Origin: Rhizophagus irregularis
Taxonomy: Eukaryota; Glomeromycota; Glomeromycetes; Glomerales; Glomeraceae
Direction of reading: 5' to 3'
Assembly: GCF_026210795.1 (NCBI RefSeq)
Contig: NC_089457.1
Span: 1,612,001-1,676,000, forward strand
DNA length: 64,000 bases
A program made the position numbers and the translations under genes. Each line of letters opens with the position of its first letter. Positions within the stretch are counted from its first letter, which is position 1. This document shows, piece by piece, positions 19,501 to 40,399 of the stretch. The notes beneath the pieces were generated by a model. That model saw only the letters and a program-made list of their open reading frames with translations, was not told the DNA's origin and searched no databases.

Positions 19501-20210
19501 TTAGGCAAAAAATAAAAGAACCATCACTAAAAAATAAAAATTGTGTCATAATGCAAAAAATTAACCAATAAAATTTACGTATAGTGAAAATCACCACTGG
19601 TGATCTTTAGCAAAACCCAAAAAATAAATAAAAAATAATTTTTTTTTTTAAGAATTGTTAAATAATAAAATTGAAAAGTGCGTATTACTATAAATATACG
19701 GAATTGTTATACAGATTGTAAGCAGATTTACCCCTAACTATTAACGTAGTTAACAGGTGAATACTAGTCTATATGGAGACCCGCACAGCAAAAGCTGGGG
19801 TTACATCAATCATGTGATTTCGAGAAAATCAAGGTTTAAGTTAACCAATCAATTTTGACGATCATTGCGAAAAAAAAACATTTTTTTCAAAAACGGTCTT
19901 TATAACATAGAACGAAATTTTGCAGGTATATAATTGAAACACTAAGCTTCCATTTCCTTCTTTTGGTGCACTTTTTTTTTATTTGATAATAAAGTTTATA
20001 TAATACATACTTTTTAAAAAAATTAGAAATTATTTTGTAAAAAATGGACATTCCAAAATCTTTATTTTTTTGAGATTTTAACGTTTGGAAGTATTTAAAA
20101 AAATAATAATTATAAAATGGCAATATCAGTAACAATAAGTAAGCAAAAAAATAGTCTTATTTTATTTGATTATTGTAGAATTTTGAATATAATTACAATA
20201 ATTTAACTTA
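19501..20210. other. AT-rich spacer, no gene seen
   Basis: Homopolymer-rich; 19740-19830 is slightly less AT-rich, without an ORF or RNA fold I can support. Confidence 0.35.
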
Positions 20211-20418
20211 ATTTGTTTCGTGTTCCTTTGGCTTAGGACAAGTAATATCACGAAAGGGTGTATCAACATAAGGTGCGATTTCTTTATACAATTCCTCCTG
20301 TCTCTTCAATGAAAGTGGTTTAATGTCAATTGTAAAAGGTAGTATATCAAAATCAAAAGGAAAGTTACGAACAGTAGCTTTTTTATAATCATCTTCGAGT
20401 TTATCTTTGTAAAAAACT
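20211..20418 (-). CDS. C-terminal exon of an unrecognised protein (remnant)
   Basis: Minus-strand reading of about 66 codons ending in TAA: FYKDKLEDDYKKATVRNF, then FDFDILPFTIDIKPLSLKRQ and later YVDTPFRDITCPKPKEHETN. Composition and lack of low complexity indicate genuine coding sequence. Upstream the same frame crosses a TGA at about 20421-20423 into a more GC-rich stretch of different character, so the exon may start at a TAG acceptor there or be truncated by an insertion. No homolog recognised. Confidence 0.4.
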
Positions 20419-20870
20419 AGTCATCGGGCTGGATGTGGAAGGTGCAAGTACCACCCACCTCTGGGTCTACGACCTGTCGCAGTACCTATATGGCCCCTAC
20501 GGGGCTCAGGAATCCCCATATATTCGCCACAATCTGGGACAACATCTGGAACAAGTATATATACCAAATAACTAGAAAATAATAGAAAAGGAAGCAAAAA
20601 CGGATATAATGAGAGGGTTGTCCCGGATGTGGCAGATGTAGCAGATGTTTCAGAAAAAATATGAGAGGACATCCCCCCAGAAAAAGTTTTATTTTTACCC
20701 CTCCAGATTCGCTACATCTGGAACATCTGGAACAAGTCAGGATTCCGTATAATAATCTGTTAGGGCAGGTGAGATAGCAAATAAGGTTAGTTAGCAGGTA
20801 AGCGCTAGAAGGTCTATAGAGCCAGTAAGTAACTTCCGTTCAGGCCCCGTCAGAAAAAATAAGTAATTGA
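20419..20870. other. GC-richer stretch with CATCTGGAACA / GATGTAGCAGATG words
   Basis: Contains repeated TCTGGGACAACATCTGGAAC, ACATCTGGAACATCTGGAAC and GGCAGATGTAGCAGATGTTT motifs and a small palindrome GGCCCCTACGGGGC-like site at 20502. Possibly part of an inserted element or the edge of the virus-like block; no boundaries found. The 83-aa minus ORF here is not convincing. Confidence 0.3.
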
Positions 20871-20978
20871 ACAATGGGTATATTAAGACGATTCAGATGA
20901 TAAAGAATACTTTTAGAAGGCAGTATAAATCCGTCTTCCCCTCTTTTTGCCTCCTTAAGGCATTTATCAATACGCTGT

Positions 20979-21243
20979 TTACGTGTCGTCAGAATCTAAG
21001 ATTTTCTGTTTAAGTTTTTTGCATTGCCGATTGTAAACCGTCTGATGTCTGCTTAGCAGCGGTTTCTTTCTTTTTCTCCTTAGTCTTCTTTTGATTACCC
21101 AGTCTATTCCAGTAAAAAGATTCTTATGCATACCACAAATTGTGCAGTCAACGCAGCCGGTAACGCCCATTTGTAGTCGTATGCTTGTATTTCACTAACG
21201 TCTCAGTTTCCTTCTTGCACTTTAAGCAGTAAAAACGTGTCAT
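20979..21243 (-). pseudogene. Small viral-type zinc-ribbon protein, frameshifted
   Basis: Starts at ATG 21243 with MTRFYCLKCKKETETLVKY and TTTNGRYR; a frameshift near 21165 moves to GCVDCTICGMHKNLF, then a Lys/Arg-rich tail (KRRLRRKRKK). Two Cys pairs (CLKC and CVDC/CTIC) with an NGR between them match the layout of short zinc-ribbon proteins encoded by large DNA viruses and some Polinton-like elements (DUF5679 type), recognised from memory. It is the first gene of the virus-like block. Role unknown; nucleic-acid binding is a guess. Confidence 0.45.
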
Positions 21244-21635
21244 CTTAAGATTTGAAGTCGAAAACCATTCCTTTAATTTGTCGTAATATGTCGCGCCCTT
21301 AGAGAATTACTATAGGAAATCTTACTGTCTCGGAGTATCGGCACGAATTCTAAAAGGTGAAGAAGCTCTATAACCGCATCTAAAAAAGCGCAAGGAAAAG
21401 TCGACGAGAACGCCCGAGGTAATTGTATGGAAACCGAATGCGAATACGTCAGGGCGATCTTGCGAGAGATGCCCCGGAGATTGCCCCAAAGGATTCCACT
21501 ACTTTTGCCATGGTGGTGAAAGTTGCGAAAGAGAGTCGATGCGAAAGGCACAAGGATAAGAAGGCGCAAATAGGGTTCTCGAATGGATTTGTTAAAATCT
21601 ACAGAAAAAATCGTATTAAGCGCAACACGTCGTAG

Positions 21636-21741
21636 AGACGATGGCTAGGATCAGAATTCAGCTTAACGACCAGGTACGTGATTTTTTCCTGAACAGCTTT
21701 TAGGGGTAATAATGAGGTTTGGAGAGCCAGGTAGACGTAAA
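21636..21741 (+). pseudogene. Integrase core fragment (before the inserted element)
   Basis: Reading in three frames gives GSEF (about 21654), QLNDQVRDFFLNSF, then GVIMRFGEPGRRK, which runs straight into the other half of the gene at 28106. The spacing from the GSEF segment to the Glu of YAERAIQ is about 35 residues, as in DDE integrases of the retroviral/Polinton type. Two one-base frame changes and the loss of a clear upstream catalytic Asp show decay. The 70-aa ORF at 21423-21635 does not resemble an integrase core. Confidence 0.5.
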
Positions 21742-22109
21742 CCCTATAAAAAATATATATACGGTTAGTATACTGTATTTTCGTATTTTGCGAACAGTAT
21801 ATTTATAGTATTATTACCGTATGATTACAGTATTTTCACATACTGTATATATTCGGTATTCTGCACACCGTATCATATATATGGTTTGCGTACAGTATAT
21901 TTTTCCAGTTTTACCCGTATGTTTTATACTTGTAAACAGTATATTGTTTTATATTTTATATTGCGAACAGTATGCTTTTCCAGGATAAACCGTATATTTT
22001 ATACTGACAAACAGTACTTTTTTCCAGTTTAAACTGCATATTTTGTACTGATAAATAGTATATATTATTCAATTAAATCGTATATTTTATATTTGCAAAC
22101 AGAATTTAA

Positions 22110-22980
22110 AATGCATTTATAATCAATAAAATTTTTATTAAATAATATTAAATATACAAATATTTTTTATAAATAATATAAATAAAAAACTAGTATAAAA
22201 TAATATACTATTTGTAAAAAAAATAATATTAGCAAAATATAAACAAAAAAAAAAGAAATTTAATTAGTAATATTATCATTATTTTAAATATAAAAAAGGA
22301 ATAATAAAAGGTTAGTAAAAAAAAGAAAGCTTAATTAGTAATATTATCATTATTTTAAATATAAAAAAGAAATAATAAAAAGTTAGTAATATTATTAATA
22401 TATTAGTTAGATATAAAAAAGTAATAAAACGATAGTAGTAATGTTAGTAATATATTAAAAAAATTAAATAAAATACATAAAAGTAAAAAAAAAATATAAT
22501 TAATATATGTTAACATATAATATTAATATAAAAATAAAAACATAAAAAGGTGTACATATAGTTGTTTAATTAATATTGTTAAAATTCACCATTACAATTC
22601 TAGAGAGATATTAGCGAAAGTAATTGTTAATTGATATACGTGCGTATCACTTTTTGTATAATTAGTAGTTTAGTACAAATATATATATTGTATATTATCA
22701 AAATAAGTTTTTTATTTAATTTTTATTATTATATGTTAAAATAGTTTTGGTATTCATTTTTATTGTCTTTTTTTTTCTAAAAAAAAAGAAGAGAAAAGAA
22801 TATTTTTGAAAAAATAAACAAAAAATAAACAATAACGTGTTATTAATGCATGTGATCAGCGATCAGCTGAATTTTAATTGGTTAAATATAGAAATGCGAA
22901 AATTAAAAAGCAGAAGTATTTTTTTAAAATTTAAATCATACAGATTGTTTTTAAAGTTCAATTAGTAATTTAAAAGTTCT
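22110..22980. other. AT-rich interior of the 6.4-kb element
   Basis: A near-duplicate of about 70 bp (TTAATTAGTAATATTATCATTATTTTAAATATAA-type) occurs at about 22260 and 22330. No gene. Confidence 0.5.
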
Positions 22981-22989
22981 TTTTTTTAA

Positions 22990-23215
22990 TAAGAAAATTT
23001 GTAAAAATTTTTTTTAATACTGCTTAATTTTTAAATTAAAGCCTTAATACTAAATTAGTTAAATTAGAATTAAGAAAAATTTGTAAGAATTTTCTTTGAT
23101 ACTGCTTAATTTTTAAATTAAAGCCTTAATATTAAATTAGTTAATTTAACTATTAAGCAGTATTAAGAAAAATTCGCAAGAATTTTCCTTAATACTGCTT
23201 AATAGTTAAATTAGA
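22990..23215. repeat. Palindromic AAGCAGTATTAAG...ATACTGCTT repeats, first cluster
   Basis: AGCAGTATTAAGAAAAATTC pairs with GAATTTTCCTTGATACTGCT to make a 20-bp stem hairpin. The same unit recurs at 24535-24910. Confidence 0.75.
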
Positions 23216-23219
23216 ATTA

Positions 23220-23400
23220 GGGAGGCTTACACATATTATGTAATTATTATAGGGGGAGGGAGGTAGTTAAAATTTTACGTTACACTTATTTAAATCATAT
23301 GATTTATAAATATTATAATTTGATTGGTTATGAAATCTAACAGGGAGGGGGGGGTAAGGTTTATAATAAAATGAATATTACGTGATATGTGTAACTCCCC
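23220..23400. mobile_element. Tourist-like MITE, 181 bp, TTA target duplication
   Basis: Ends GGGAGGCTTACACATATTAT and the inverse of GGGGAGTTACACATATCACG are imperfect TIRs (about 20 of 24 alike), and TTA flanks both sides (23217-23219, 23401-23403). This fits a PIF/Harbinger MITE. Interior contains G-runs on one strand. Confidence 0.6.
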
Positions 23401-23403
23401 TTA

Positions 23404-24530
23404 ACATATAGGCTGATTTATGGAATTAAGTTTTTATATTCAAAAAACTAACTTTATTAAGCAAATGCAAATACAAGTTACATGAAAATGATAGATTCAC
23501 ACCAGCTGACATAAATAAAATTGATTTGATTATATTATTTTTTGATTTTTTTTAATAATATCATTAAAATTAAAAAATTTAAATATAATTGTCATGACAA
23601 AATATTGAATAACTTAATGTGTATCTGTGCTAGATGAATGAATTTATATTCATTAGAAAGAGGTAATCAAGAGCTATCTATAAACCAAATATCGCATGAA
23701 TTGAATCACAAGTTGCTGAATAATTACGTTTAATGTATTTGTTTTTAACTTTTGACTTTGATCGTTAATATCTTCACATCTAGTAATTCAATTTGAATGA
23801 ACTTTTTTCGTTCAGGTAGTTTAGGTTCTGGCCTTTCATATGAATATAAATATATGTGTTTAGCATGTATTTATGCTGATATATTAACAATTTTGTTAAT
23901 TGAATAAAACTCTGATACAAAAATTTTTAAAATTATAATTCTTACCAAAAGATGATCTTTACAGGTATTATTGAGCTCTTTTTACTTTACTTAATAAGGT
24001 TTTATTTGCTATTTCTGTTTTAAATTGAATAAATTAATAAAATCAATTTTAAAAAGTAATTAACAAGTAGAATAAAATCAGTATAGTAAAAACAAAAAAA
24101 AACATCTCAAAAACTCTAAAGCATAACTCACATTTTTATTTTGTATATTTTTACTAAAAAAAAGAAGGAACTAAGGTTAAAAATAAATGAAAAAAGATTT
24201 TTCTTATTAATATAAATTATTAATATTTGTTTTTTTAATTATTGATTAAAAAAAACCTGCTATATATGCCTATAAACTTTTCTAAGTCACCTAATAAAAA
24301 TCTGATTGAAAAGTGATTGAAAAGTGATTGAAAAGTGATTAAAAAAGAAAGTAGTTGCCATTGTTATTTTTGAATAAACGTTAAAAAATTTTTTTTTATT
24401 TTTTGATAGATTTAGATCATCTGATTATGTAACACATATAATTTAAGCTTGTGAAACATAATTCTTGTTAAAATGTGCAAATCTTTATGAAAATCTTAAT
24501 TTTGGCTAATTCCACAAATTGGCGAATATA
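23404..24530. other. AT-rich interior of the 6.4-kb element, no gene
   Basis: Only simple features, such as a short (GATTGAAAAGT)n triplet at 24300-24345. Confidence 0.5.
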
Positions 24531-24534
24531 AGCA

Positions 24535-24910
24535 GTATTAAGAAAAATTCTTGCGAATTTTCCTTGATACTGCTTAATTTTTAAACTAAAGCCTTAATAC
24601 TACTAAATTAGTTAAATTAGAATTAAGCAGTATTAAGAAAAATTCGCAAGAATTTTCCTTGATACTGCTTAATTTTTAAATTAAAGCCTTAATACTAAAT
24701 TAGTTAAATTAGAATTAAGCAGTATTAAGAAAAATTCGCAAGAATTTTCCTTGATACTGCTTAATTTTTAAATTAAAGCCTTAATACTAAATTAGTTAAA
24801 TTAGAATTAAAGCTTTAATACTAAATTAGTTAAATTAGAATTAAGCAGTATTAAGAAAAATTCGCAAGAATTTTCCTTGATACTGCTTAATTTTTTAAAT
24901 TAAAATCTTA
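24535..24910. repeat. About 108-bp tandem repeat built of hairpins, about 3.5 copies
   Basis: Each unit has the AAGCAGTATTAAGAAAAATT hairpin followed by TTTTTAAATTAAAGCCTTAA and TAAATTAGTTAAATTAGAAT. Copies are nearly identical, so the expansion is recent. Confidence 0.8.
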
Positions 24911-25110
24911 ATACTAATTTATAAAAATGATTTATAATTGAGTTTTGAATTTAGTATTATCAATCAGACTTTGAACTTAAAAATTAAACAGTATTAACAA
25001 AAATTCTTGCAAATTTTTAATAATTGTGATTTTACATCAGTGAGTTTTTGGGTAGTATATATTAGTGGATACTAGTATTGTTTGATGCTTTAAAGTGTAG
25101 AAAAACTTAC

Positions 25111-27023
25111 GTCAAATAAATAAAAACTGGCAAAAAAATCAGATAGCCAATTTTTGGCTATATTTGTCCGATTTGTAATTTTTTGTAGCTGATTTTTTAG
25201 TACGAATTGACAAAAATTGGATATGCCAATTTTTAAATTGCATATTCAAATCGGATTGCTGATTTTAGCTATATTTGTCTGATTTGTGACTTTTTACAAC
25301 CGTATTACCAATTCTTAACTACATTTTTCAGTTTTTTCACTATACAAAAAAATTGTATATACTGTACATTATGAAATATATATTTTTATAAAAAATTATA
25401 TTGTAATATTGAATTAAATTTTAAAAAATATTTTATTAAGCAATATTAAATAAAAAACTAATCTTAAATAATTAAATTTTAAACAAAATACATTTAAGAA
25501 TATAAATTTACTTGTAATTCAATGTAATATGCACAATTATAAAAATTAATAATTCCACAAATATTAACTGTACCTTCATTAAAATAAATATTCAAGTAGA
25601 TTCTAAGCTGCTGAACAATTTTCAATTAATAAATGAAGTCGATTTGCTTTGGCTAAAGTGCTCAAAATACGCTCTGAATTGACAAAATGGAAAAAATAAA
25701 ATTCGTGAATGAGTACCGTTGTGAAAATCGTGAATAACTCATCAAGTATTAACTGTACCTTCGTAAAAATTAATATCCAAGTAGATATTGACATGCTGAA
25801 CAACTTTTAATTAATATAAGAAGTCGATTTACTTTGGCTAAAGTGCTCAAAATACGCTCTGAAGTGACAAAATAGAAAAAATAAAATTCGTGAATGAGTA
25901 CCGTTGTGAAAATCGTGAATAACTCATCAAGTATTAACTGTACCTTCGTAAAAATTAATATCCAAGTAGATTTTGACATGATGAACAACTTTCAATTAAT
26001 ATAAGAAGTCGATTTACTTTGGCTAAAGTGCTCAAAATACGCTCTGAAGTGACAAAACGGAAAAAAATAAAATTTGTGAATGAGTACCGTTGTGAAAATC
26101 GTGAATAACTCATAAAGTATTAACTGTACCTTCGTGAAAATTAATATTCAAGTAGATTTTGACATGCTGAACAACATTCTATTAATATAAAAAGTTAGTT
26201 TACTTTGGATAAAGTGCTCAAAATACGCTCTGAAGTGACAAAACAGAAAAAAATAAAATTCGTGAATGAGTACCGTTGTGAAAATCGTGAATAACTCATC
26301 AAGTATTAACTGTACCTTCGTGAAAATTAATATTCAAGTAGATTTTGACATGCTAAACAACTTACAATTAATATAAGAAGTTGATTTACTTTGGCTAAAG
26401 ATCTCAAAATACGTTCTGAAGGTAAAAAAATTTGTAACTTAATACTACTGTATTATATAAAAAATGTAAATAATTCCAAAAATATTAACTGTACTTTTAT
26501 GAAGATTAATATCTTAACAGTTTTAAACTTACTGAACTACTTTTAATTAAAAGAATAAGATTTACTTTAACCAAAATGCTCAAACCATACTTTGAAATAT
26601 GTGTAAAAAAAATATAATATTTGTTTATATTTTAAATTATGAGTTATTTAATTTAAATGTGTTTATATTTAAGAAAAAAAATATTTTAATTCTATTTTAT
26701 AAAGTATTTAAAAAGTATTTTAGTAAAGTTTTTGAGGCAAAAAAATAATTATAACTGAAATAAAAAAAAAAAAATCTAAGTTAATAAATAAATATTAAAC
26801 CGTAATACATAATCACATGTTATATATTAAAATTAGAAATTTTATATTAAAATTGAAAAATCCTACTACAAATAGCCAAAAATCGGCAATTTCATGTTAA
26901 AAATCAGAAATATTATATTAAAATCAAAAATATTTATTAAAATCGGAAATATTATATTAAAATTGCCAAAAAATCAGATAGCCATATTAAAACGGGCAAA
27001 AATCTGATTTTTATTTATTTGAC
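25111..27023. mobile_element. Inner element with GTCAAATAAATAAAAA ends
   Basis: GTCAAATAAATAAAAA at 25111 and its inverse ending at 27023 are identical over 16 bp; both are followed inside by AATCAGATAGCCA / GGCAAAAATC words. No clear target duplication was seen. The interior is mostly the 185-bp tandem repeat. Non-coding. Confidence 0.5.
25560..26480. repeat. About 185-bp tandem repeat, five copies
   Basis: Unit includes ATTAACTGTACCTTCGTGAA, TTTACTTTGGCTAAAGTGCT, CAAAATACGCTCTGAAGTGA and GAATGAGTACCGTTGTGAAA. Copies start near 25564, 25748, 25933, 26117 and 26304; a diverged one follows at about 26482. The overlapping 66- and 72-aa minus ORFs are the same unit read twice. Confidence 0.85.
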
Positions 27024-27278
27024 CTGTGTATATCTGTAGAAAATACGTTATAAACGTATGAATTTTAATATACTGTAGAATAATACGTATACCGTATCCT
27101 TCATTTACAATATTTTTGTGAACCGTATACAAAATACTGATATACAGTAGAAATGGTATACGTTATAGACGTATGAATTTAATATACCGTATCACACAGT
27201 ATGTTTACCATATACTTTATTGTATTTTTTACTAAACACATTTTGCAAACAGTATACATTATACTGATATGCCGTATG

Positions 27279-28026
27279 TAGAGCTCCAAACAGGTCAGCC
27301 AAATTCAGGTAACCTGACCTGACCTGACCTGAAATTCAGGTCAGGTATGAAGATTGACCTGACCTGATTGACCTGTTGACCTGAAATTATTGATTCTACT
27401 ATATAATAAAAGTGAGTTGCAGTATTGCGATTCACTTTTTTATATTGATTTTATATAATAAAAGTGAGTTGCAGTATTGCGATTCACTTTTTTATATTGA
27501 TTTTATATAATAAAAGTGAGTTGCGGTATTGCGATTCACTTTTTTATATTGATTTTATATAAAAAAAGTGAGTTGCGGTATTGCGATTCACTTTTTTATA
27601 TTAATTCTATATAAAAAAAGTGAATCGCAATACCGCAACTCACTTTTTTTATATAGAATCTATATAAAAAAGTGAATCGCAATACCGCAACTCACTTTTA
27701 TTATATAAAATCAATATAAAAAAGTGAATCGCAATACCGCAACTCACTTTTTTTATATTAATTCTATATAAAAAAAGTGAATTGCAGTATTGCGATTCAC
27801 CTTTTTATATGATTTTAATATGAAAAAGTAAATCGCAATATTTTCAAAAAAAATGTTTTATACCATTTTATTGATATTTTAATAAAAATCCTGAAAATTT
27901 TCAGGTTTCAGTTCAGGTCAGGTCAAACAGATAACCTGATATAACCTGACCTGACCTGACCTGAAAAAAAATTTCAGGTCAGGTTTATCAATTAACCTGA
28001 CCTGACCTGACCCATTCGGAACTCTA
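27279..28026. mobile_element. hAT-type element with AGGTCAGG subterminal repeats, 748 bp
   Basis: Ends TAGAGCTCC... and the inverse of TAGAGTTCC...; GCCGTATG flanks both sides exactly (27271-27278 and 28027-28034). Both ends hold ACCTGACCTGACCTG runs. No ORF. The middle is occupied by a large palindromic array. A related fragment lies at 41477-41600. Confidence 0.9.
27391..27842. repeat. Array of short palindromes that reverses direction midway
   Basis: Unit (about 60 bp) contains AAAAGTGAGTTGCAGTATTG followed by CGATTCACTTTTTTATAT, itself an imperfect hairpin. About four copies run one way, then at about 27605 the array flips and runs back (AAAAGTGAATCGCAATACCG), so the whole is a roughly 220-bp-arm inverted repeat. 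Confidence 0.85.
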
Positions 28027-28102
28027 GCCGTATGTAAAAATGCGAACTGTATCAAAAATACGTATATACAGTGTAAAAACCGTATACATATTTTTTATAG
28101 GG

Positions 28103-28753
28103 AAACAGCAATCATATGCTGAAAGAGCTATCCAAGCCATCCAAGAACCCCTTCTCAAAAGAATGGTGGCACAGGAGTTGAAAACCGGGGTGACATCCGT
28201 GGAATGGTCAGAAGATTTCCATAATATAGTAAGTAAAGTAAATGAACTCTGGCAGAGAAATCCCCCAGATATTCTGACAGGGTCACCCAAAGTGTTAAAA
28301 AAGACAGACCTCCTCTTTGAAGGAACACGTGTCAGAGTCAAGTTAGATGAACCTATTTCTGTACTTGGTAACAAACTTCACGGAAAATTCCGTACAGGAG
28401 ATATAAGATGGAACCCAAACATTCGTGTAATCAAAAAAATGATACTCTCACCTGAACAGCCTCCTACATATCTCCTTAACGGACCACATGGTCGATTAGG
28501 TATATCCAGATGTGCATATACCCGAAAGGAATTGCAAGTAGTTCCTATTAATGAAAAGCCTCCACCTGACTCTGTGATAAGAGGACAACCTGAAAGATTT
28601 GTTCCTGAACAGATACTTCGGCATCGGATTAGAAAAGGTCAACATCAGTACTTGGTCAAGTGGAAGTGATACCCAGATACAGAAGCCACTTGGGAACCTG
28701 CTGACCGGTTGGAGGAGGATGTCCCTAACTTAATTCGCAAATTTTGGGAATAA
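28103..28753 (+). pseudogene. Integrase C-terminal half with chromodomain
   Basis: Open from the element edge: QQSYAERAIQAIQEPLLKRM (the E is the likely third catalytic residue of the DDE triad), a helical linker, then RTGDIRWNPNIRVIKKMIL, QPPTYLLNGPHG and AYTRKELQVV, the SH3-like C-terminal part in the form seen in Polinton/Maverick integrases. A chromodomain follows (ILRHRIRKGQHQYLVKWK, then YPDTEATWEPADRLEED, ending KFWE-stop). A TGA at 28667-28669 stands where chromodomains have Gly, splitting the domain; otherwise this half is intact. It inserts element DNA into the nuclear genome. It converges on the protease ORF with 23 bp between stops. Confidence 0.7.
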
Positions 28754-28776
28754 AAAAATAGAAGAATTAAAGGGTC

Positions 28777-29526
28777 TTATTTTTTGTCTCCTCGATTAAC
28801 ATCAGGAACTATTGGGATAAAAACATTCTTCCCATCACAGGTAAGGGCTATATGTTCACGTGATTCATGGACATCATAATTGTAACGTTTCAGACACGTT
28901 CGGTTTAACCCAATCTCCCTATGCTTGTATCCATCTAAAACTGCAAGATCCTCAGTGATAGCATAATCAGGGGTAAGTTTGATTGACACTCCCTTTACCA
29001 TACCGAATGTCCTACCTGTTCCTGGAGCACCAGATATGTTGTATGTAATACTCTTGTCGATATCCAACCCTAATTCCTCAGCAGCTTCTCTCTGAATAAA
29101 AGACGCATTAGCACAAGTGTCTGCTAAACACTGAATTGCTATCCCATTAACCTCTCCATCCAGTGCTAAAAGATCTTTAGTATTCTCCAAACGAGCTATA
29201 TCAATATCCATAGGATCGTCTTTCCTGATATCCTCTTCTTGTTCCTCCTCAGCTAAGTCATCTGAAATTTCTGTGACTTTTCTAGCAGACATCATCTCCT
29301 CCTGAAGAATCTCACGAAGTAATTTCCTAAAGTCTGCAGACCTTAACAGGCTTAATAAGTCATTCTTAGTAACAGCTTTTGCAGGTGTAGTCTTACTACC
29401 AGTAACTTTCACAGGAATCTTAACAGGGGTTGCTTTGCCTTTTAAGGGCACACTAGAAGAGCTAATTGCTGTCTTATTCAGGGACGACTTAAGAAGTTTT
29501 GAGATACTCGAACCTACTTTTTTTTT
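28777..29526 (-). CDS. Retropepsin-like protease, apparently made by -1 frameshift from gag
   Basis: The frame is open from the A9 run at 29518-29526 to a stop at 28777; there is no good ATG, and the first in-frame alternative is GTG at 29451. A basic/Pro-Lys N-terminus and a Glu-rich linker precede GIAIQCLADTCANASFIQ, where strand-DT-C-A matches the retropepsin active site but with DTC in place of the usual DTG (D111 counted from the GTG). REIGLNRTCLKRYNYDV matches the second conserved hydrophobic-G-x-x-x-L segment. Role: cleavage of the polyprotein during capsid maturation, by analogy. It lies directly after gag in the -1 frame. Confidence 0.65.
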   Translation of the reverse strand, partial: KKKVGSSISKLLKSSLNKTAISSSSVPLKGKATPVKIPVKVTGSKTTPAKAVTKNDLLSLLRSADFRKLLREILQEEMMSARKVTEISDDLAEEEQEEDIRKDDPMDIDIARLENTKDLLALDGEVNGIAIQCLADTCANASFIQREAAEELGLDIDKSITYNISGAPGTGRTFGMVKGVSIKLTPDYAITEDLAVLDGYKHREIGLNRTCLKRYNYDVHESREHIALTCDGKNVFIPIVPDVNRGDKK

Positions 29527-31270
29527 GACCCAACACGAACCATATAGACATCACCATCTTTTTCTCTCAATTCTATCTTTTCACCAAAACTCACAGTATC
29601 AATGTCCATAGCATCATCGTTAAGATCGAGGTTTTTTATTGCTCGGGCCAAATCCAGATCATTACGTCTATCTTTAGCCTTCTGAAGTTGATTAGTAAGT
29701 ATTTTAGACGTCCCACGTTTATATTCCATAATAAGATCAATAGCATTTTGATGATCATCTAAAGTCCAAGCAGGAGCATCAGGATCATCACCAACATCAG
29801 GTTCTACATAACTATCATCCCAATCAGGATCCTGATGATCCTGAATAACACGTCTCTGTGGTTTTGGTCGAACAGGTTTAATCTGCTGTCTATAGACTGG
29901 TAGATTACGAACTGGCCGAGCCTGTAATTGTTTAAATTGCACCTGAAAATTCTTGGTAAGTTCCTCAGCTTGAGCAGGACCCCGGATATCTCCAAAACAG
30001 GTCATAAGTCACACTTTCGGCAGATTGGCCCATTTTTTCAGCTCAAAAAATCGTTTTTTGTAAATATCTCGGCATCCAGTGGTCCAATTTGATGAACTTT
30101 TTTTTAAATTGTAGAGCTAAATGAGGGCTACAAAATAAAAAAAGTTCATTAAAATTGAATTACTGGATGCTGAGATATTTACAAAAAACGATTTTTTGAG
30201 TTTCAGCAAAAAGGGGTGTTTTTGGCCAAAAGTCCATTATGACCTTTATATTAGATATCCGGGGTCCTGCTTGAGCCTTAAGTAACTCTTGTAATTGTTC
30301 TTGAGTAACCCCAGATGACTTTGATGTCAGTATGACAGGTTCCTGTTTTCCTAACGGAGGTTGAGTTACATCACTGTAATCTGCTTGAAGTCGTCGATTT
30401 CTATCTTGTAACCCCAAGCGCATTTCAGCCCTTCTCCGTTCTAAATTTCTCAGATGTTTAACCAAGTCATCAGGATTAAGATTACTAAACCTTTCTGCTT
30501 CAAAAATATTATCAGCCGAAAGACCTCTAAAGAACTGGTCGATAATAAGATCATCAGTTAGTTTTAGTAATTTTCCAGCCCTCTTTACAGTTCTATAAAA
30601 TGCATCAACTGGCTCATTTTCCTGGTAAAGACTGTTAAAACAGATACGTTTCTTTTCATCTAAAATAGTTGGAAATTGTGTTCTAAGCCAATAAAGTGCC
30701 TGGTTAGGTTTAATACCTAGAAAAACTATAGGATGATTATTAGCAGCAGCAACACCAGCATCTGCAGTAGCTGGAGCAGCTCTATCTGTCGGACAAGCAC
30801 CAGCTCTTCCCCAAGCTTTATCTCCACCCATTAAATCATGAGTAGGAATAAATGTTGTTCTAATAGTTGCTAATGCATTATTTATATCTCTTGAATAGAT
30901 TTGTGCTTCAGACCCATTTACATAGGTACCTGCATTTGGTCCTCCTGCACCTTCTGGTATTACTAATGCTACAAAAGCAGCTAAATTAGCTCCACCAGCT
31001 GAATTGATACTAGAAAGTTCCCAATTTTTTCCTGTAATTTCTCGATCAAACCATTCAGCCGCTTCACCGGCCATGCAGCTTCTAAGTATACCTATAGCTC
31101 TTTTCCAAGACTCTGGTGGCCCTCCAGCAGCGTATGGATTAAGATTGATAGTATCAAGATAACCCATATAAAGCCTAGCAAATGTATCAACATCATCAGT
31201 AGCTTTACCCTCAAAAATCGGCAATCCTATCGCAGTGGTAGCCATATCGTCTCTAGTGAATTGTTTAAAA
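29514..31270 (-). CDS. Gag-like capsid protein, interrupted by a MITE
   Basis: Reading runs from the slip site near 31266 (first ATG 31245, MATTAIGLPIFEGKATDDVD) to TAG at 29514. LPIFEGKATDDVDTFARLYM, SWKRAIGILRSC, AAEWFDREITG, then ENEPVDAFYRTVKRAGKLLK and IIDQFFRGLSADN are the pattern of retrotransposon Gag capsid helices, including the major-homology-like Q/G-x-x-E-F region. A 293-bp MITE (29976-30268) splits it; element plus duplication is 301 bp, which explains exactly the change of reading frame on its two sides, so no other damage is present. The C-terminal part is acidic and then basic, ending VGSKKK before the stop. No zinc knuckle. It would form the particle shell. Confidence 0.65.
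29517..29526 (-). promoter_or_regulatory. Putative -1 frameshift site 2 (A AAA AAG, gag to protease)
   Basis: Minus strand reads TCA AAA AAA AAG TAG in the gag frame: the heptamer A AAA AAG is in slippery phase and the gag stop follows at once. A -1 slip enters the protease frame, which is open. This is the arrangement used by retroviruses at gag/pro. No downstream stem-loop was worked out. Confidence 0.6.
29976..30268. mobile_element. hAT-type MITE copy C, 293 bp, target duplication GCTTGAGC
   Basis: Same ends as copy B (AGGACCCCGGATATCT and inverse). GCTTGAGC at 29968-29975 and 30269-30276. Inserted in the gag ORF. Close identity to copy B, 21 kb away, indicates recent activity of the family. 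Confidence 0.95.
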
Positions 31271-32024
31271 GAGGTGGAGGAGGGTTTAATTGTCTAATTC
31301 GAAACCATTGTACCTGAATTCTAAGAGCAGCTATCTGTTGGAAAAGTCTATTCCTAAGTCTCCCTAATGTCTGAATCCCAAAACGCACCCTATTATTAGC
31401 ATGTACAAGTTGTGCATTAACCTGTCCAAGTTGTGCATTAGCTAATATAAGTTGTCCTCCAGTCTGAGTAGCCCTCAGCCGCCAATGATTCAAAAGGATA
31501 TTACCACGATTCACAGCATTTTGAGCCTCATTACGATCCCTTACTGCTTGAGTATAATCTGCTTGTAATACATTACGTTCATGTCGTGCCTGATTACGTT
31601 CACCTATAGCCTGTCGACGAAGCTCTACCATAGTATCATAATCTCTTTGCAGGTTATAGTTTTCTTCTATGAAATTATCATTGGCAGCACGTATAATAAC
31701 TAATTGTCGTTCTAAATTAGTAAACGTTTCATCAAATGCATTTATCTTATCTTGTGCAAAAACTAACAAATCTTTTGTAATACCAAGTTCTTTATGTTTT
31801 GCTTTACAGCGATACATTAATATATTAATAATATGTTTGATTTGATTATTTGCCTCCTGTATTTCTGAATCAACAGTTAAACGACCCCTGGTAGTCAATA
31901 AATTTGCATGAGCCTTAAGTATTCTAACTAACTCATCATCATTTTCTTCATTGGTCAAGTGTGCAGGAGGCAGTCCAGTAGGTTCTGAAGGAGTATAAAC
32001 TGGAATTGGTGTTGATGTCGACAT
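31227..32024 (-). CDS. Coiled-coil protein at the head of the gag-pro polyprotein
   Basis: 265 codons from ATG 32024 (MSTSTPIPVYTPSEPTGLPP) to TAG 31227. After a Pro-rich start the chain is almost wholly helical: ELVRILKAHANLLTTRGRL, RQAIGERNQARHERNVLQAD, then repeated QLGQVNAQLVHANNRV, ending in a PPPPLLNN tail. No catalytic motif. It overlaps gag, which lies in the -1 frame, and has a U UUA AAC slip site in phase near its end, so it is likely the N-terminal part of a Gag precursor. Its start is 52 bp from the divergently read ATPase gene, suggesting a shared promoter. Confidence 0.65.
   Translation of the reverse strand: MSTSTPIPVYTPSEPTGLPPAHLTNEENDDELVRILKAHANLLTTRGRLTVDSEIQEANNQIKHIINILMYRCKAKHKELGITKDLLVFAQDKINAFDETFTNLERQLVIIRAANDNFIEENYNLQRDYDTMVELRRQAIGERNQARHERNVLQADYTQAVRDRNEAQNAVNRGNILLNHWRLRATQTGGQLILANAQLGQVNAQLVHANNRVRFGIQTLGRLRNRLFQQIAALRIQVQWFRIRQLNPPPPLLNNSLETIWLPLR
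31263..31269 (-). promoter_or_regulatory. Putative -1 frameshift site 1 (T TTA AAC, coiled-coil ORF to gag)
   Basis: Zero-frame codons are CTT TTA AAC, so the heptamer T TTA AAC is in the correct phase. The -1 frame is open through FTRDDMATTAIGLP into gag, while the zero frame ends 12 codons later at TAG 31227. U UUA AAC is a well known efficient slippery sequence. Internal initiation at ATG 31245 is the alternative. Confidence 0.55.
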
Positions 32025-32076
32025 AGTATTTAAACTAAGTTAGAATAAAATTCAAATAGATCTTTATGTATACAAT

Positions 32077-33279
32077 TTGGACGAGTATACGACCGACTCA
32101 AGACAAGGCAATGAGTTTGCTCCATCATGGCCCTTTCGATTAGCCGTAGCAGGTAGCTCAGACTCAGGTAAGACAACTATGATCATTAATTTGTTAATGG
32201 GTGACAAGAAAGCAAAGGAGGATGGTAATCGGTATGTACTATGTGATGCAGTACTTTTAGTTGGCAGATATTTTGACGAGCCGAAGTGGGCAGTTGTACA
32301 TGATTTTTTCGAAGAGGAGAAGATCCCATTCACTGCAGTAACCCATAGTGAGATTCCAGAGATTGACTCTTTCGACCCTACTCAAGCTACTGTAGTAATC
32401 TTTGAGGATCTGATGGATGCACCTAAAAAAATCCAGGATCTCATTACTGGTTACTTTACACATGGACGACACAAAAATATTTCATGTATTTATGTAGCCC
32501 AAAGATTCTTTGCCATTCCTAAGGCTATTCGAGAAAATATTAACTACATTTCACTGCATGGAGGTCATGGGAGCCTTACAGATACTAAGAGAATCATCCG
32601 CCTATATACAGAAGAATCTGAGTCATTAGTTCCAGTGATTGATGATCTTACTCTGCAATGTGAATTTGTAGTGTTTGATCTTAGACGGTCCAAAAGTGAT
32701 CCACTGTCCATTCGAGTAAGATGGGATACTAGTCTCAGTTCGATCACAGAGCAATCTCAGTTCAATCCTAGTTCGATCTCAGTTCAATCTCAGTTTAATC
32801 CAAGTTTGAATCCAGTTCGATCTCAGTCTGAATCCAGTTCAATCACAGTTCGATCCAAGTTTAGTCCCTATGGTCAGAAAGCTGTATCTGAAGCAAAAAA
32901 AGGTGGACACTTGATTGAATTTGCTCGGGTATTTCCATTCCCTAAAGAACGTCAACATTTACTTGTACCTGGTGTCTTAGCCAAGAATACAGATACCTGG
33001 ATTAAATATGTCTTTCGGGAAGCTTATGGACTCTCTGGTAAGACCCTAGGAGCTGACTTTCAGGACTTCTTAGCAAAAGTACAGGGTAGGACTGCAAAGA
33101 CTGAAACTCTGAAAACTGAGAATGTGAAGGAGTTATTCTTCCGATATGAAGCCCTGAAGTCTAGTCGCCCTCTGGATAATAAAAAAATAATAGAAGGTAT
33201 TGAAGTCCTTCTACAGATCTTTTCTAAGAGCCACATGGACTGTCGAGCATTACAAGTAGGGATTAATAGTATCTTGTGA
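32077..33279 (+). CDS. A32-like (FtsK/HerA superfamily) genome-packaging ATPase
   Basis: About 400 codons. N-terminal P-loop domain: FRLAVAGSSDSGKTTMI (Walker A G26-x4-GKT), ATVVIFEDLMD (Walker B, about 105-114), and YFTHGRHKNISCIYVAQRF (about 126-144), the GRH...sensor-Q signature of poxvirus A32 and Polinton packaging ATPases, followed by AIRENINYISL. Residues about 225-270 are a low-complexity Q/S/N insert from a TCAGTTCAATC microsatellite. A second, unrecognised alpha-helical domain (about 275-400) begins YGQKAVSEAKKGGHLIEFAR. There is no in-frame ATG before Walker A: the only nearby ATG (32066) is in another frame, so a one-base change near the start is likely. It would pump DNA into a capsid. 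Converges with the next gene, 5 bp between stops. Confidence 0.8.
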   Translation: MDEYTTDSRQGNEFAPSWPFRLAVAGSSDSGKTTMIINLLMGDKKAKEDGNRYVLCDAVLLVGRYFDEPKWAVVHDFFEEEKIPFTAVTHSEIPEIDSFDPTQATVVIFEDLMDAPKKIQDLITGYFTHGRHKNISCIYVAQRFFAIPKAIRENINYISLHGGHGSLTDTKRIIRLYTEESESLVPVIDDLTLQCEFVVFDLRRSKSDPLSIRVRWDTSLSSITEQSQFNPSSISVQSQFNPSLNPVRSQSESSSITVRSKFSPYGQKAVSEAKKGGHLIEFARVFPFPKERQHLLVPGVLAKNTDTWIKYVFREAYGLSGKTLGADFQDFLAKVQGRTAKTETLKTENVKELFFRYEALKSSRPLDNKKIIEGIEVLLQIFSKSHMDCRALQVGINSIL

Positions 33280-33284
33280 GAATA

Positions 33285-33805
33285 TCAAGTAATTCGTCTG
33301 CACTCAAGAATATAGCACTTTTTACGGCCTTCAAAGTCAATCCTTAATATCTTAGCCTTCAACCCTATTGCTCCTAAAGCAAAGTTCTTAGTCATTGGAT
33401 TACTTATATGATTTACATAGTTCTCATAGAATGTAGTGAAAGGCTCGTCAATACCATCTGGATATGTATCCCTTAGAAATTGATACAAAGCAATTTCTCC
33501 ACTGTCACAACCTATGGCTATAAGCTGTTCGAGAAGCCACTTCCTAATATCTTCATATGGCTCTCCATCCATAATTTTCATATCCAGTCTTTGTGTAAAC
33601 AATTGTGTAAAGTCCACATTACTTCCCCGACGAATGATCTGAACTAACTTATCCTAGCAAGTCCCAAGGCTTGTAGAGGGTCATTCTCATCACTAATCTT
33701 CTTTATAATCTGTCTGTATAATACACTGTATAATCCTCTATGTGCTGTTTTTGGAGTGATTACTCTACAGTTTTGGCACTGGTTTATTACGATTGATGTT
33801 GACAT
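33285..33805 (-). pseudogene. Unrecognised protein of the virus-like block, one frameshift
   Basis: Starts at ATG 33805 (MSTSIVINQCQNCRVITPKT, with a CxxC pair) and is open to TAG at 33644. The reading continues in another frame from about 33655 (KLVQIIRRGSNVDFTQLFTQ, then MKIMDGEPYEDIRKWLLEQL) to a TAA at 33285, ending KKCYILECRRIT. Together about 173 residues, mixed alpha/beta. The join needs one missing base. No family recognised. It lies tail to tail with the ATPase gene and head to tail with the gene at 33851-34429. Confidence 0.45.
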
Positions 33806-33850
33806 GGCTATCTTTCTTTATGTAAAAAAGAATTATTCAAAATTAAGTAA

Positions 33851-34429
33851 CTATTCAGAGCAGTCCTTGCACAACTTGTCCGTTAAGTCACTTGGGCTTA
33901 CAGGCATGAGACATTCCCTACACAACTCAATATTAAGCTCTGCAAGTCTTGGGGCATGGTCCTTCAAAGTTCGTGGATGACCGGAAGGACCGATAGTTGT
34001 CATATCAGTCGTATCCTGCTGTAAGATAAAATCATCATATTCATCTTGGTCAGCCTGAATAGCAGCCCTGATTTCTTGTATATCATTGAAAGTTAACCGC
34101 TAACCATCAAGATTTTCCTCATTATAGCGTGTTTCATTAATGATTTCCTCTATAAGCTCCTCTTCTTCATAATGGACAAGGTAGTAGTCCTCAACTACCT
34201 CATAGTCACTCTCAATCAGTCTATGATATGTTCTAGTACCACATCGAACATAACGTCCTGTATCTGTATTTAAATATACAGGTTGCTCCTCAGGTGGAGG
34301 TGCAGTTTGTCTACGGATAAGCCTTCCGTCAATATAATCATGGGATTTCATAACTATTCGATTAAAGGTATCTCCACCGATAATAATTGGACGTCCAGTT
34401 ATAGGGTTAGCTATATAAGGGTAAGACAT
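33851..34429 (-). pseudogene. Protein with two NPxTGR motifs (viral 2-cysteine-adaptor style) and a zinc-ribbon tail
   Basis: From ATG 34429: NPITGRPIIIGGDTFNRIV (about residues 7-26) and a second copy LNTDTGRYVRCGTRTYHRLI (about 52-71), then an acidic tail. The pattern N-x-x-TGR-x-I-x-x-G-x-T-[FY]-x-x-[IL] is common in proteins of iridoviruses, mimiviruses and similar DNA viruses (2-cysteine adaptor domain, recalled, unverified). An in-frame TAG (34102-34100) is followed in the same frame by TFNDIQEIRAAIQADQDEYD and a CRECLMP...CKDC zinc pair ending at 33851. Role unknown. It supports a DNA-virus origin of the block. Confidence 0.5.
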
Positions 34430-34464
34430 ATCTTTTTTCTGTATGTGTCTACATTAAGGATGGT

Positions 34465-34600
34465 GCCGTAATTGGGCAATTGCGGATTAATTGCGGATCC
34501 GCAATATTGCGGATTTGCAGATTTCAGAAGTCCAAATATCCGCAAATCTGCAAACCGCAATTATCCGCAAATCCGTAAAAAATCCGCAAATTAGCCAATT
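34465..34600. repeat. Left subterminal GCGGATTTGC repeats of hAT 3
   Basis: About ten copies of TTGCGGAT / ATCCGCAA in both orientations next to the TIR. Confidence 0.8.
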
Positions 34601-34776
34601 AAATACTGTATCACGATCATTACTCAATCTATATATTTATATAGAATCATCAAATTTAGTATTATTACTCACTCTATTATAATATAATCAATTTATAATG
34701 CATCAAAACATCAAAACAATTGTATCTAAATTCTTCTTTTTCTATTTACTTTTTTCAACAATTTATTAGTATTAAA

Positions 34777-36653
34777 ATGTCAAAAACACCTTCTTCGGCT
34801 CTTAATTTAAAGATTCGTGGAAAAAAAGTTGAGCTATTGCCTGAAGACGAAGAATTAATTTCGTTAGCACTGTCAATTATTTGGACTAAGTCTAATAAAA
34901 AAATTGAATCATGTAATTTTGACCAAGATAAAGTAAGATTATCTTTCAAAAAGAATGAGGGACGCGTTTATTTTGACTTGCAAGAATCGGCTTTAGATTT
35001 TACATTCATCAATAAGGTATTCCATAAGGCCCTTTTTAAATGATTTTGATTTCGCTTATAATTTTTTTTTTCAGTCCACCTTTTTCCCTTGAATTTTCGT
35101 TTCTGGACAATTTTGTCTACTTTTTTTGTCTCGTTTCTGGACAATTTTGTACACTTTTTTTTTGTTCTACCTTTTTCTCATTTCTGGACAATTTTGTCCA
35201 CTTTTTTCTGTTCTACCTTTTTCTCGTTTCTGGACAATTTTGTCCATTTTTTTTTGTTCCACTTTTTTCCCTTGAATTTCCGTTTCTGGACAATTTTGTC
35301 CACTTTTCGTTTCTGGACCACTTTTTTCTCTTGGTATCAGAACCATTTCATTTTAGAACAAATGATTTCATTTCTGAACAAAATTTATTACTTTTTAGGG
35401 TAATTTGGCTGAACTTAAACGCTACAAATCGCTATATGAATTATATAAAGGTAGATACGAAGTAATTCGTTTACAGGTAAATATGTGAATGAATTTTAAT
35501 ATTTATATCTTAATTTTGTTTATATTTTATTTGTTTATTTATATATTTTCTAATAATAGCCAGAAAATACACATTCAACTACATCTGGTACAACTGGTAG
35601 CGTGAATGAATCATTAAGAGAATTGTTACAATATTCAACACCCAAACACACGTGCCTAGAATCCTCTCCCAGCTCATCATTATATCTTAAACCCAACGAT
35701 TCAGAACTTGCCCGTGTGTTAAACAGTGATTTATCCATAAATAATCTTTCTACTTCTGACACTGAAACAAAAATTTGGTCAAATTTGAATATACGCTGTA
35801 TCGAAAAATTTGGCGGACAAGATCACATAAAAAATGATGTTTCTATTTCTGACATAATGTGGGCCAGTACAACCTTACCTGCGTACCGCAGCTGGAACAC
35901 AATGAAGAATTATTATGATGACATTGATGAATGGATCGCAAAAATTAGTAGCTTCTGTAAGTTAAATTTATCAAATTCTGAAATTGTTCTTGATTATTAT
36001 ATTTTTCTTATAATATTTATATCTAAATTTTCTAGGTACTGCTAATGATGATGAGGATAACAATTTCCAACCTACTGAAGCTGCAAATTCAAGTTCTACT
36101 AGGGATGAATCTGGCAACAGTGAAATTAATGAATTTAACCCACCTTCACAATACAAAGTAGTTCCAGCATCAGCACGAGCATCAACCACGGAAGTTGAAA
36201 CATCGATGAAACCACTAACAAGATCAATAACATCTAAAGTAAAATTAGCAACACAAGTGCCAACTAGAGAAGTGATAGTATCTATAGAACCACGGGTACC
36301 AACTTCAGAAATGAAGTCATCGGCGGAGGTACCTCCAGAAATGACATTGGCGAAATCAGCGAAATCAAGTGTGGCAGAATCACAAGTACCTTCAGAAATG
36401 GCAGTGGAGGAATCAGCAGAATCAGCAGAATCACAAGCACTAGCTTCAGAAATGGAGGAATCAGAAGAATTAGAAGCATCAACATCTGTGTCGTTATCAA
36501 AATCCGCTGTACGAAAATGTAATTTCTCAGATGATGATGACGACGACGATGATAAAGCCAAATTATTAAATTCTATCCAATTGTTATTATTCAAAAAGGG
36601 AAAGAAACTTCACGATATTTTGTTAGCAGATTCATCGTTTAATGGCGAACTCA
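34777..36653 (+). pseudogene. Passenger gene of hAT 3, exons 1-4 (5' part)
   Basis: Exons 34777-35016, 35399-35476, 35560-35956 and 36036-36653 join in phase (GT...AG). The protein starts MSKTPSSALNLKIRGKKVEL, includes LAELKRYKSLYELYKGRYEV and RCIEKFGGQDHIKNDVSISD, then a Ser/Glu-rich repeat region (SEMEESEELEAS) and an Asp run (DDDDDDDD). Intron 1 carries the GGACAA array. The reading is cut at 36653 by a CACTA-like element and resumes at 42183 (next part). No recognised domain, but a related two-gene layout in hAT 2 suggests a helper protein for transposition. Confidence 0.6.
35085..35335. repeat. TTTCTGGACAATTTTGTCCA array 1 (in intron 1 of the passenger gene)
   Basis: Five to six copies about 35-60 bp apart of the near-palindrome GGACAATTTTGTCC. 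The same motif forms arrays at 43000-43140 and 50815-51075. Confidence 0.8.
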
Positions 36654-36969: not shown

Positions 36970-38030
36970 AATATTGGTAATATATATTTTTATTGTATAC
37001 GTTTGACAATTTCATATTAAAACTAATAGATTTATATCTCTTTTTTTTTATTTTAATTTGGGCTAAATGAAATTCAATTTTATTAAAATTTATAAATTTA
37101 TTTACATAAAAGCAATAATACAAATCTTACACTATCTGTTACGTAAAAATCAAATAAAGTTGAACATAATTATACTATGTAATATGTAAAGTTCTACTGA
37201 AAGTAGCAATGATAATAAAATTACCTCTTTGCTTGCTTTTGTTATATCTGTTTATTATTTAAAAGAAATATTAGCGAAAATATTAGTAAGTGTATTAATT
37301 AATAAGAGAAAAAAGGAAATGTTAATAAAAACGTTAGTGGTAAATATAGAAAATATTAGTAAAATGTTAGTAGGAAAAAAGAAAAGTTAGTAAAATAGAA
37401 AATATTAATAGGAGAACGTTAATAAAAACATTAGTAGTATTTAATATTAATAGAAAATGTTAGTAATAGAAAACATTAGTGGGAGAAAAGAAAAAAATAT
37501 TAGAACGTCAATAGAAAATATATATATAAAAAGAAAAAAACAAGTATAATGAAAATATACCTTTATGTTTATTTCTAAATATAAAAATAAAATAAAAAAT
37601 ATTAATAATATTATTTCATAATAACTAAGTAAAGAGTTTGTTTAGTTTGTTTTAAATAATAAAAAAGTTTAAGAGAAAGGTTTTTACGACGGAAAGAAAA
37701 AAAAATAAACACAGTGCGAAATATAAACACTTAAATCATGTGATCAATCGCCTGATTACAATAACAAATTCTGATTGGGCGATTGGGCCATAGATTTTAT
37801 GTCAATCTGGATTAATAAAAATGTATTTAACGTTCATGCAAACTTTGTACTACTCACTATACTATTTATACTAGAATTACACTGCAAGTTAAACTCTTTA
37901 TCACTTTAAATAATACAAAACCCTACTTATATATACCATTACACCCATCCACTAACCATTTAATTTAGGTTTTTTATTAATTTAAAACCTATAATAATGC
38001 ATAAGATATAATCCTTTATAATTCAGTTAA
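36970..38030. other. AT-rich interior of the CACTA-like element
   Basis: Degenerate GAAAATATTAGTAA words at 37250-37520; no gene. Confidence 0.5.
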
Positions 38031-38039
38031 CAATTAATA

Positions 38040-39885: not shown

Positions 39886-40399
39886 ATGATGATAAATGAA
39901 AAGGATAATTAAAAACAAAATAAGAACAAAGGGAATCATGATAGAAAAATAAAATGAAGGCGAAGGGAATAATGAAATAATAAAAACAAAAGGAGCGAAA
40001 AAAATAATAGAAAATAAATGAAAATAGAGTGAAATGGATATAGAAAATGAAAAGGGAATAAAGTGGATGATAGAAAATAAAAGAAACTGTTAGTATCATT
40101 TTCAATAAAGAAAACAATAAAATAGCAAAATACTAGTAATAAAAGTGAGTCTTACCTTAAACTCTTTGAAGTTATTTGAAATTGTTGTTTTCTGAAAAAC
40201 AAGTTAACAAGTTAGCATAAAGAAAAAGAACATTAAACTAGCGAAGTAATAAGAAAATAAAAAAATCTTACCTTAAGAAATTCCAGAAAAAGCTGGCCAT
40301 TTTGGAAATAATACTACAAGAAAGCAAAAAACAAAATATGTGCTACGCATTTGTGTAATATGAAATCATCTGGTGAATTTTACTGGGATAAATTTAAAA

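Follow-up and report, generated by a model that had tools for sequence, protein, structure and literature searches.

A DNA element of Rhizophagus irregularis combining Polinton genes with a Gag-protease module beside an A32-type ATPase

In a 64,000-nucleotide stretch of the Rhizophagus irregularis genome (hereafter the window; positions 1612001-1676000 of contig NC_089457.1), a sequence-only reading had proposed that Gag, a retropepsin, a chromodomain integrase and an A32-type ATPase belong to a single mobile element. Searching the whole genome (146.7 Mb, 32 contigs), we found that these genes co-occur across about a hundred copies of one element, about 14.35 kb long when intact, in which Polinton genes are joined to a Gag-protease (Gag-Pro) module. 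That this chimeric composition is real and conserved is near certain. We lean slightly toward reading the element as a Polinton whose jelly-roll coat module gave way to a Ty3-type Gag-Pro while the A32-type pump was retained.

Gag and the ATPase as parts of one DNA element

In the genome, gag has 91 scored matches and the window ATPase at least 109. An ATPase match lies within 10 kb of 85 of the 91 gag matches (within 2 kb of 79), in all 85 cases on the opposite strand in divergent orientation, and the remaining six have none nearby. Counted from the ATPase side, a gag match lies within 10 kb in 89 of the 109 cases and is lacking in 20; ten of these seemingly gag-less copies were examined over the 2.5 kb upstream, and all ten carry the gag of a second subfamily in the usual place, shortened in L031 (first 63 amino acids) and L036 (first 145) and with frame breaks in several. 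The DNA polymerase (PolB) behaves similarly: of 71 matches, 59 have an ATPase within 12 kb and 12 have none nearby, while 51 of the 59 also have a gag within 20 kb, and 50 of those 51 clusters have the canonical arrangement of genes and strands. This pairing of gag-pro with the ATPase far exceeds what chance would give. Separately, copy c24a (L013/L014) was seen to have inserted into gag of a different copy, and the L031 gag is broken.

We compared ten further copies, each taken with 10 kb on either side of the ATPase start. The intact copy c11 (L016/L015) is 86% coding, and its only noncoding stretches longer than 250 bp are at both ends and, counting from the first base of the ATPase gene, at +2375..+2646. 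Its genes run in the order DUF5679 zinc ribbon, integrase, protease, Gag, coiled-coil protein (241 amino acids), ATPase, p186, p193, p138, p156, PolB, helicase and p119. The zinc ribbon, already suspected from the window, is clearest here (106 amino acids, L016:4160-4480; DUF5679, 3.6e-17), and the 363-residue integrase matches rve (5.2e-9) and Chromo (4.1e-17). The sequence-only reading had described the element as lacking PolB, which proved to be a consequence of truncation of the window copy: on the side missing there, intact copies encode a family B DNA polymerase (626 amino acids in c11; DNA_pol_B_2, 1.7e-7; motifs DVTSLYPS, KRVLNTLWG and HTDG) and a superfamily 3 (SF3)/D5-like helicase (864 amino acids; DUF5906, 1.6e-17; phage primase-helicases, 3.5e-16). 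A search of the PDB with this polymerase returned no match. The presence of polymerase and helicase in intact copies marks the element as Polinton-like and self-replicating. Among the smaller proteins, p193 matches the 2-cysteine adaptor family (2C_adapt, 8.1e-4 in c11 and 0.0056 in the window copy), p138 (L015:6938-7354) has a weak F-box match (0.0084), and p119 (L015:1122-1481; 35% identity between subfamilies) has an N-terminus that looks F-box-like by eye; p138 and p119 may be degraders of host factors.

Six of seven copies tested end in inverted repeats that are 460-488 bp long and match each other at 98.4-100% identity (none was seen within the stretch examined for c12), in agreement with the earlier observation that long terminal repeats (LTRs) are absent. 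All five copies in which both ends could be read are flanked by 5-bp target duplications (CCATT, ACACT, ATGTA, TCGCC and AGTGC). In several copies the terminal repeats are nearly identical and the duplications still intact, suggesting that the element has moved recently. Maverick is listed among recently expanded R. irregularis families, many copies having low methylation (PMC8647823; here and below, PMC numbers refer to excerpts of the papers). Reverse transcriptase (RT), likewise reported absent from the sequence alone, had no Pfam match among the open reading frames (ORFs) scanned in the window and c11, nor did a jelly-roll major capsid protein (MCP), a penton or an adenovirus-type cysteine protease. 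The largest c11 ORF without an assignment has 241 amino acids, and none is large enough for a jelly-roll MCP. A PF04451 search for a jelly-roll capsid elsewhere in the host did not recover its control and hence has no bearing on the question.

The genome holds two subfamilies of the element, and comparison of a representative of each (c11 and c13a) shows 54% identity between Gags and 86% between ATPases. For this single pair, ratios of nonsynonymous to synonymous substitution (dN/dS, Nei-Gojobori) are below 1 for all 13 genes: zinc ribbon 0.05, integrase 0.06, PolB 0.07, ATPase 0.09, p186 0.09, protease 0.15, p156 0.15, p193 0.18, helicase 0.19, p119 0.24, Gag 0.41, p138 0.45 and coiled coil 0.59. 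Gag, Pro and the ATPase are therefore under purifying selection.

These data bear directly on a chance juxtaposition, in which a Ty3 gag-pro fragment merely came to lie in or beside a Polinton. Ty3-type gags are indeed numerous in the genome (PF03732 has 150 scored matches), and the window copy does contain nested insertions. Against this, the module keeps its position and orientation in both subfamilies, between which Gag identity is about 54%, it is under purifying selection, the element has neither LTR nor RT, and only two of the best 40 among the 150 PF03732 matches have an ATPase match 15 kb away or less. The sequence-only reading had named two patterns that would point to chance, namely gag found only in Ty3 elements with RT and LTRs, or the ATPase always without gag; with 85 of 91 gag matches near an ATPase, neither is seen. 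Co-occurrence, fixed orientation and purifying selection lead us to reject this explanation, including its variant of a nested Ty3 fragment; its residual probability is negligible. Because of the same three properties, gag is no chance neighbor of the ATPase; it is a fixed part of the element.

Identity of Gag, the protease and the ATPase

The ATPase (window 32077-33279, plus strand) lies where the earlier reading had placed it and matches Pox_A32 at 1.2e-9, scoring 38.5 bits where the cut-off is 22.8. The protein has Walker A, Walker B and the GRH...Q signature, and the columns SS.SGKTT, FED, GRH and Q are invariant across 22 aligned homologs. The protein also matches a phage terminase family (phrog_2666, 3.8e-8); a PDB search returned irrelevant weak matches only.

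A single element Gag is a weak match to Retrotrans_gag (0.056 for c11), and we therefore examined the family as a whole, using 23 homologs chosen for spread. These are unnamed jgi, ena and lgn proteins of presumed metagenomic origin, sharing 34-93% identity with the first; in R. irregularis itself, the Gag of copy L016:832-2259 matches NCBI proteins of DAOM 181602=DAOM 197198 without a mismatch across 96% of its length. Retrotrans_gag was found in 17 of the 23 at E values up to 1 (best 2.6e-4), every other family in at most two. When a profile of the 23 was compared with 177,635 PDB sequences, the top match, in the same region, was the capsid domain of PEG10 (E 0.0078). Furthermore, a profile built from four host LTR-type Gags was run against the 23 element Gags together with 11,500 shuffled decoys, and 11 of the 23 outranked every decoy (best 7.8e-7). 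The alignments with host LTR Gags cover an N-terminal lobe (F.Gked.D ... G.aadWyd) followed, as expected, by a C-terminal lobe (dqf..GLsP); in the element Gag the two capsid (CA) lobes are separated by about 85 additional residues. A CCHC zinc knuckle occurs in none of 25 element Gags, versus five of the six host LTR Gag translations examined (those of 12 LTR loci that yielded a frame). On balance, and allowing for two weaker or negative comparisons given below, it is very likely that the element Gag is homologous to Ty3-type Gag.

Comparison among Gags suggests that the CA region and the tail assort independently. Between c11 and P0019 the two CA lobes are 97-99% identical and the tails 47%, whereas between c11 and P0061 the lobes are 40-54% identical and the tails 71%; the two subfamilies within the genome differ in the latter direction (lobes 42-50%, tail 68%). 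Relative to c11, the sequences P0019, P0061 and P0144 present CA lobes and tails in differing combinations, as if by recombination, with the reservation that metagenomic sequences are possibly chimeric assemblies. Such assortment would fit a fast-evolving structural protein.

The window gag ends in AAA AAA AAG TAG and overlaps by 37 nucleotides with pro, whose open frame is the -1 frame. Seventeen gag ends, from 16 of 19 sources and from both subfamilies, carry the same string of nine A residues, G and a stop despite differing flanking codons; the search pattern demanded an A run before the stop, and the copies missed (c1, c13b and L033) may differ at that point. At the protein level, a lysine run lies at or close to the C-terminus of 21 of the 23 Gag homologs, and two stop earlier. 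We infer that the A9 run promotes a shift into the -1 frame, by ribosomal or transcript slippage, which would yield much Gag and little Gag-Pro. The pro frame of L030 breaks soon after the slip site, and in two matches a 737-residue open frame would allow direct gag-pro fusion as an alternative to slippage.

The protease itself (window 28777-29550, minus strand, stop to stop and -1 relative to gag) had been called retropepsin-like in the sequence-only reading, and the profile comparison agrees: it matches Asp_protease_2 at 4.1e-8 and DDI1-type structures at 0.003-0.05. The motif ADTCANAS is found in 10 of 11 sources (the string was not found in c24b), and among 280 proteins every one of 88 occurrences agrees. 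We regard the protein as retropepsin/DDI1-like by profile and its activity as putative.

A candidate coat weighed against other roles

With Polintons/Mavericks (Polintoviricetes), which include elements of Glomus intraradices (R. irregularis), the element shares long inverted repeats, a length of about 15 kb, a family B DNA polymerase, an rve integrase with chromodomain and an A32/FtsK-like packaging ATPase; however, it encodes Gag and a retropepsin-like protease where no jelly-roll MCP or adenovirus-type protease could be recognized, and its target duplication is 5 bp in contrast to the 6 bp typical of rve integrases (PMC12220804). With Ty3/gypsy elements (Metaviridae) it shares a two-lobed CA region, the order of Gag and Pro and a -1 overlap with an A run, but it differs in lacking RT, RNase H, LTRs and the CCHC knuckle, in the extra residues between the CA lobes, and in encoding Gag-Pro within a DNA element that has its own DNA polymerase. 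Its ATPase resembles poxvirus A32 and nucleocytoplasmic large DNA virus (NCLDV)-type ATPases, with a Pox_A32 score above the curated cut-off and the Walker A, FED and GRH...Q columns, yet its gene adjoins a Gag module. Known A32-type ATPases serve jelly-roll or related viral capsids. PEG10, whose Ty3-derived capsid domain (PDB 7lga) gave the best PDB match to the Gag profile, in the C-terminal CA lobe, is a domesticated animal gene outside any DNA element, unlike the element Gag.

That Polintons occur in R. irregularis is known: Maverick is present in a curated repeat library of this fungus (PMC11075540), and in the Polintons of Glomus intraradices the MCP went undetected both in earlier work and in PMC7805220. 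More broadly, of 72 Polintons, 46 were reported to have a full-length jelly-roll MCP gene and another 13 one that is split (PMC4028283), and two fungal Gypsy-like integrase lineages group with Polinton and retrovirus clusters (PMC2836005). A term search found no mention of a Gag-bearing Polinton in the portions of PMC11071308, PMC10120064, PMC8547959, PMC3671162, PMC5294986 and PMC4409740 that were covered, and no report of Gag or a retropepsin in a Polinton was found in the open-licence PMC literature, represented mostly by titles and abstract openings, with Repbase and subscription literature outside this scope. Within that literature, the Gag-Pro module of the R. irregularis Polinton appears to be unreported.

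If the element replicates and spreads as we envisage, its own DNA polymerase would copy it as linear DNA, and slippage into the -1 frame at the A9 run would supply Gag in excess over Gag-Pro. Gag would assemble into a shell that is matured by Pro, and the ATPase would pump double-stranded DNA into that shell, replacing the RNA-binding route through the zinc knuckle that the element Gag lacks. The particle could then move DNA among the nuclei of the coenocytic hypha, and perhaps between fungi, whereupon the chromodomain integrase would insert the element into chromatin. Judged from sequence, the central step, in which Gag forms the shell of element DNA and is filled by the A32-type pump, has a somewhat better than even chance of being correct. 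The fuller proposition is more tentative and falls slightly short of an even chance: that this is a virus-like element of double-stranded DNA with a Gag/Gag-Pro shell produced by slippage and filled with DNA by an A32-type ATPase, the outcome of a coat exchange across viral realms, with neither an RNA genome nor RT.

Several observations weigh against a Gag coat of this kind. In the comparison of Gag families, the reverse search, with an element-Gag profile against host LTR Gags, gave nothing above decoys, and the hhalign comparison of element and host Gags left a narrow margin (144.8 for the real alignment versus a shuffled maximum of 144.2, with none of 100 column shuffles reaching the real score). 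The protease active site reads DTC and not DTG or DSG, the aspartate being kept and the glycine replaced by cysteine. With respect to expression, the window copy shows no unusually stable, stimulatory RNA fold downstream of the slip site (z 0.17), and NCBI gene models (e.g., P0001) connect gag and pro via introns, which makes splicing an alternative to slippage. No relatives of gag, the helicase, the ATPase or the integrase were found in IMG/VR viral contigs. Finally, p156, p186 or p193 might be a small jelly-roll penton that lacks sequence similarity.

The unusual protease motif also favors a rival in which Gag-Pro was kept for another job, such as carriage of RNA or protein, nuclear import or interference with retroelements, while the virion was lost, the element took up a transposon life and the ATPase assumed another role. 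The idea that MCP-less Polintons adopted a transposon life has been published (PMC7805220), and Gag and the coiled-coil protein are the fastest-evolving products (dN/dS of 0.41 and 0.59). However, in nine MCP-less Polintons the ATPase and protease were missing as well (PMC4028283), whereas here the ATPase is strongly selected (0.09), and production of Gag and Gag-Pro by a slip suggests a structural ratio. We judge this explanation unlikely, though a serious competitor.

A further possibility accepts Gag as the shell and has DNA enter by co-assembly with another DNA-binding protein of the element, leaving the ATPase to act elsewhere, for example in segregation or DNA release. Immature retroelement Gag shells assemble around nucleic acid, and the element does encode small unassigned proteins (p156, p186 and p193) and a coiled-coil protein that could serve. 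The match of the ATPase to packaging families, both Pox_A32 and the phage terminase family, argues against such a division of labor, which we consider distinctly improbable. A Gag shell filled by the pump is the arrangement that we prefer.

The window copy and the wider meaning of the element

The window copy extends from 20420 to 34454, as delimited by BLASTN against the ten other copies, with which it has the segments 20452-21742, 28103-29975 and 30269-34454 in common. Homology stops at 34454; the copy is right-truncated and its right terminal repeat is gone. The left terminal inverted repeat (20420-20882) matches both ends of complete copies, its terminus being placed at 20420 by comparison of GTCATCGGG in the window with GTCGTCGG in c11. 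The sequence-only reading had described the block as compact and intronless. The copy is neither intact nor continuous: in addition to the truncation, we found a 6.4-kb transposon, a 293-bp miniature inverted-repeat transposable element (MITE) and in-frame stops at 28667-28669 and 34100-34102.

From the left, a remnant of the zinc-ribbon gene occupies 20979-21243 (minus strand; 5' limit set by eye), followed by the degraded 5' part of the integrase gene at 21288-21741 (plus strand; homologous to the 363-residue c11 integrase, with the start set by eye). The 6.4-kb transposon (21742-28102) splits this gene, whose 3' part, with the chromodomain and the first of the two stops, resumes at 28103-28753 on the plus strand, as judged by homology and Pfam. 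Gag (29514-31245, minus strand; 476 amino acids in c11) is placed by homology and is split by the MITE at 29976-30268; its stop lies in the A9-G-TAG run at 29514-29526 (minus strand), the candidate -1 slippage site. The coiled-coil protein (31227-32024, minus strand) holds a conserved position between gag and the ATPase. Gag, the coiled-coil protein and the chromodomain-bearing integrase C-terminus all lie where first placed, and the gene spacings hold as given, with the integrase and protease stops 23 bp apart, the ATPase and the next gene 5 bp apart, and the divergent starts 52 bp apart. Beyond the ATPase, p186 (33285-33823, minus strand) is broken in frame in the window copy and intact in c11 (L015:8254-8814), its upper limit being estimated from the c11 alignment. 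The last gene, p193 (33851-34429, minus strand), carries the 2-cysteine-adaptor motif NPITGR, a C-terminal CxxC pair and the second in-frame stop; of the two NPxTGR motifs originally ascribed to it, one is exact and the other reads NTDTGR.

The nested 6.4-kb transposon is AT-rich; its ends CCCTATAAAAAATATATA are inverted, and a 3-bp repeat, AAA, flanks it. The MITE has ends AGGACCCCGGATATC and an 8-bp duplication GCTTGAGC, hAT-like in its size, and a further copy of the MITE lies near element copy c8. To the right of the element, the window contains short tandem repeats at 35040-35465, whose translation gives LDNFVHFF-type peptides, and a long low-complexity tandem array at 38027-39939, in which minus-strand frames are repeats of HSISLHIIFHHS. 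An Rfam scan of 19900-36000 returned no match.

A conserved Gag-Pro beside a packaging ATPase provides a concrete and testable candidate for the missing coat of R. irregularis Polintons. If the candidate is correct, the coat module of a DNA element would be exchangeable for that of a retroelement, A32-type pumps would not be bound to jelly-roll capsids, and there would exist a natural Gag shell able to carry long double-stranded DNA. The finding also bears on the possible movement of DNA between the nuclei of coenocytic mycorrhizal fungi.

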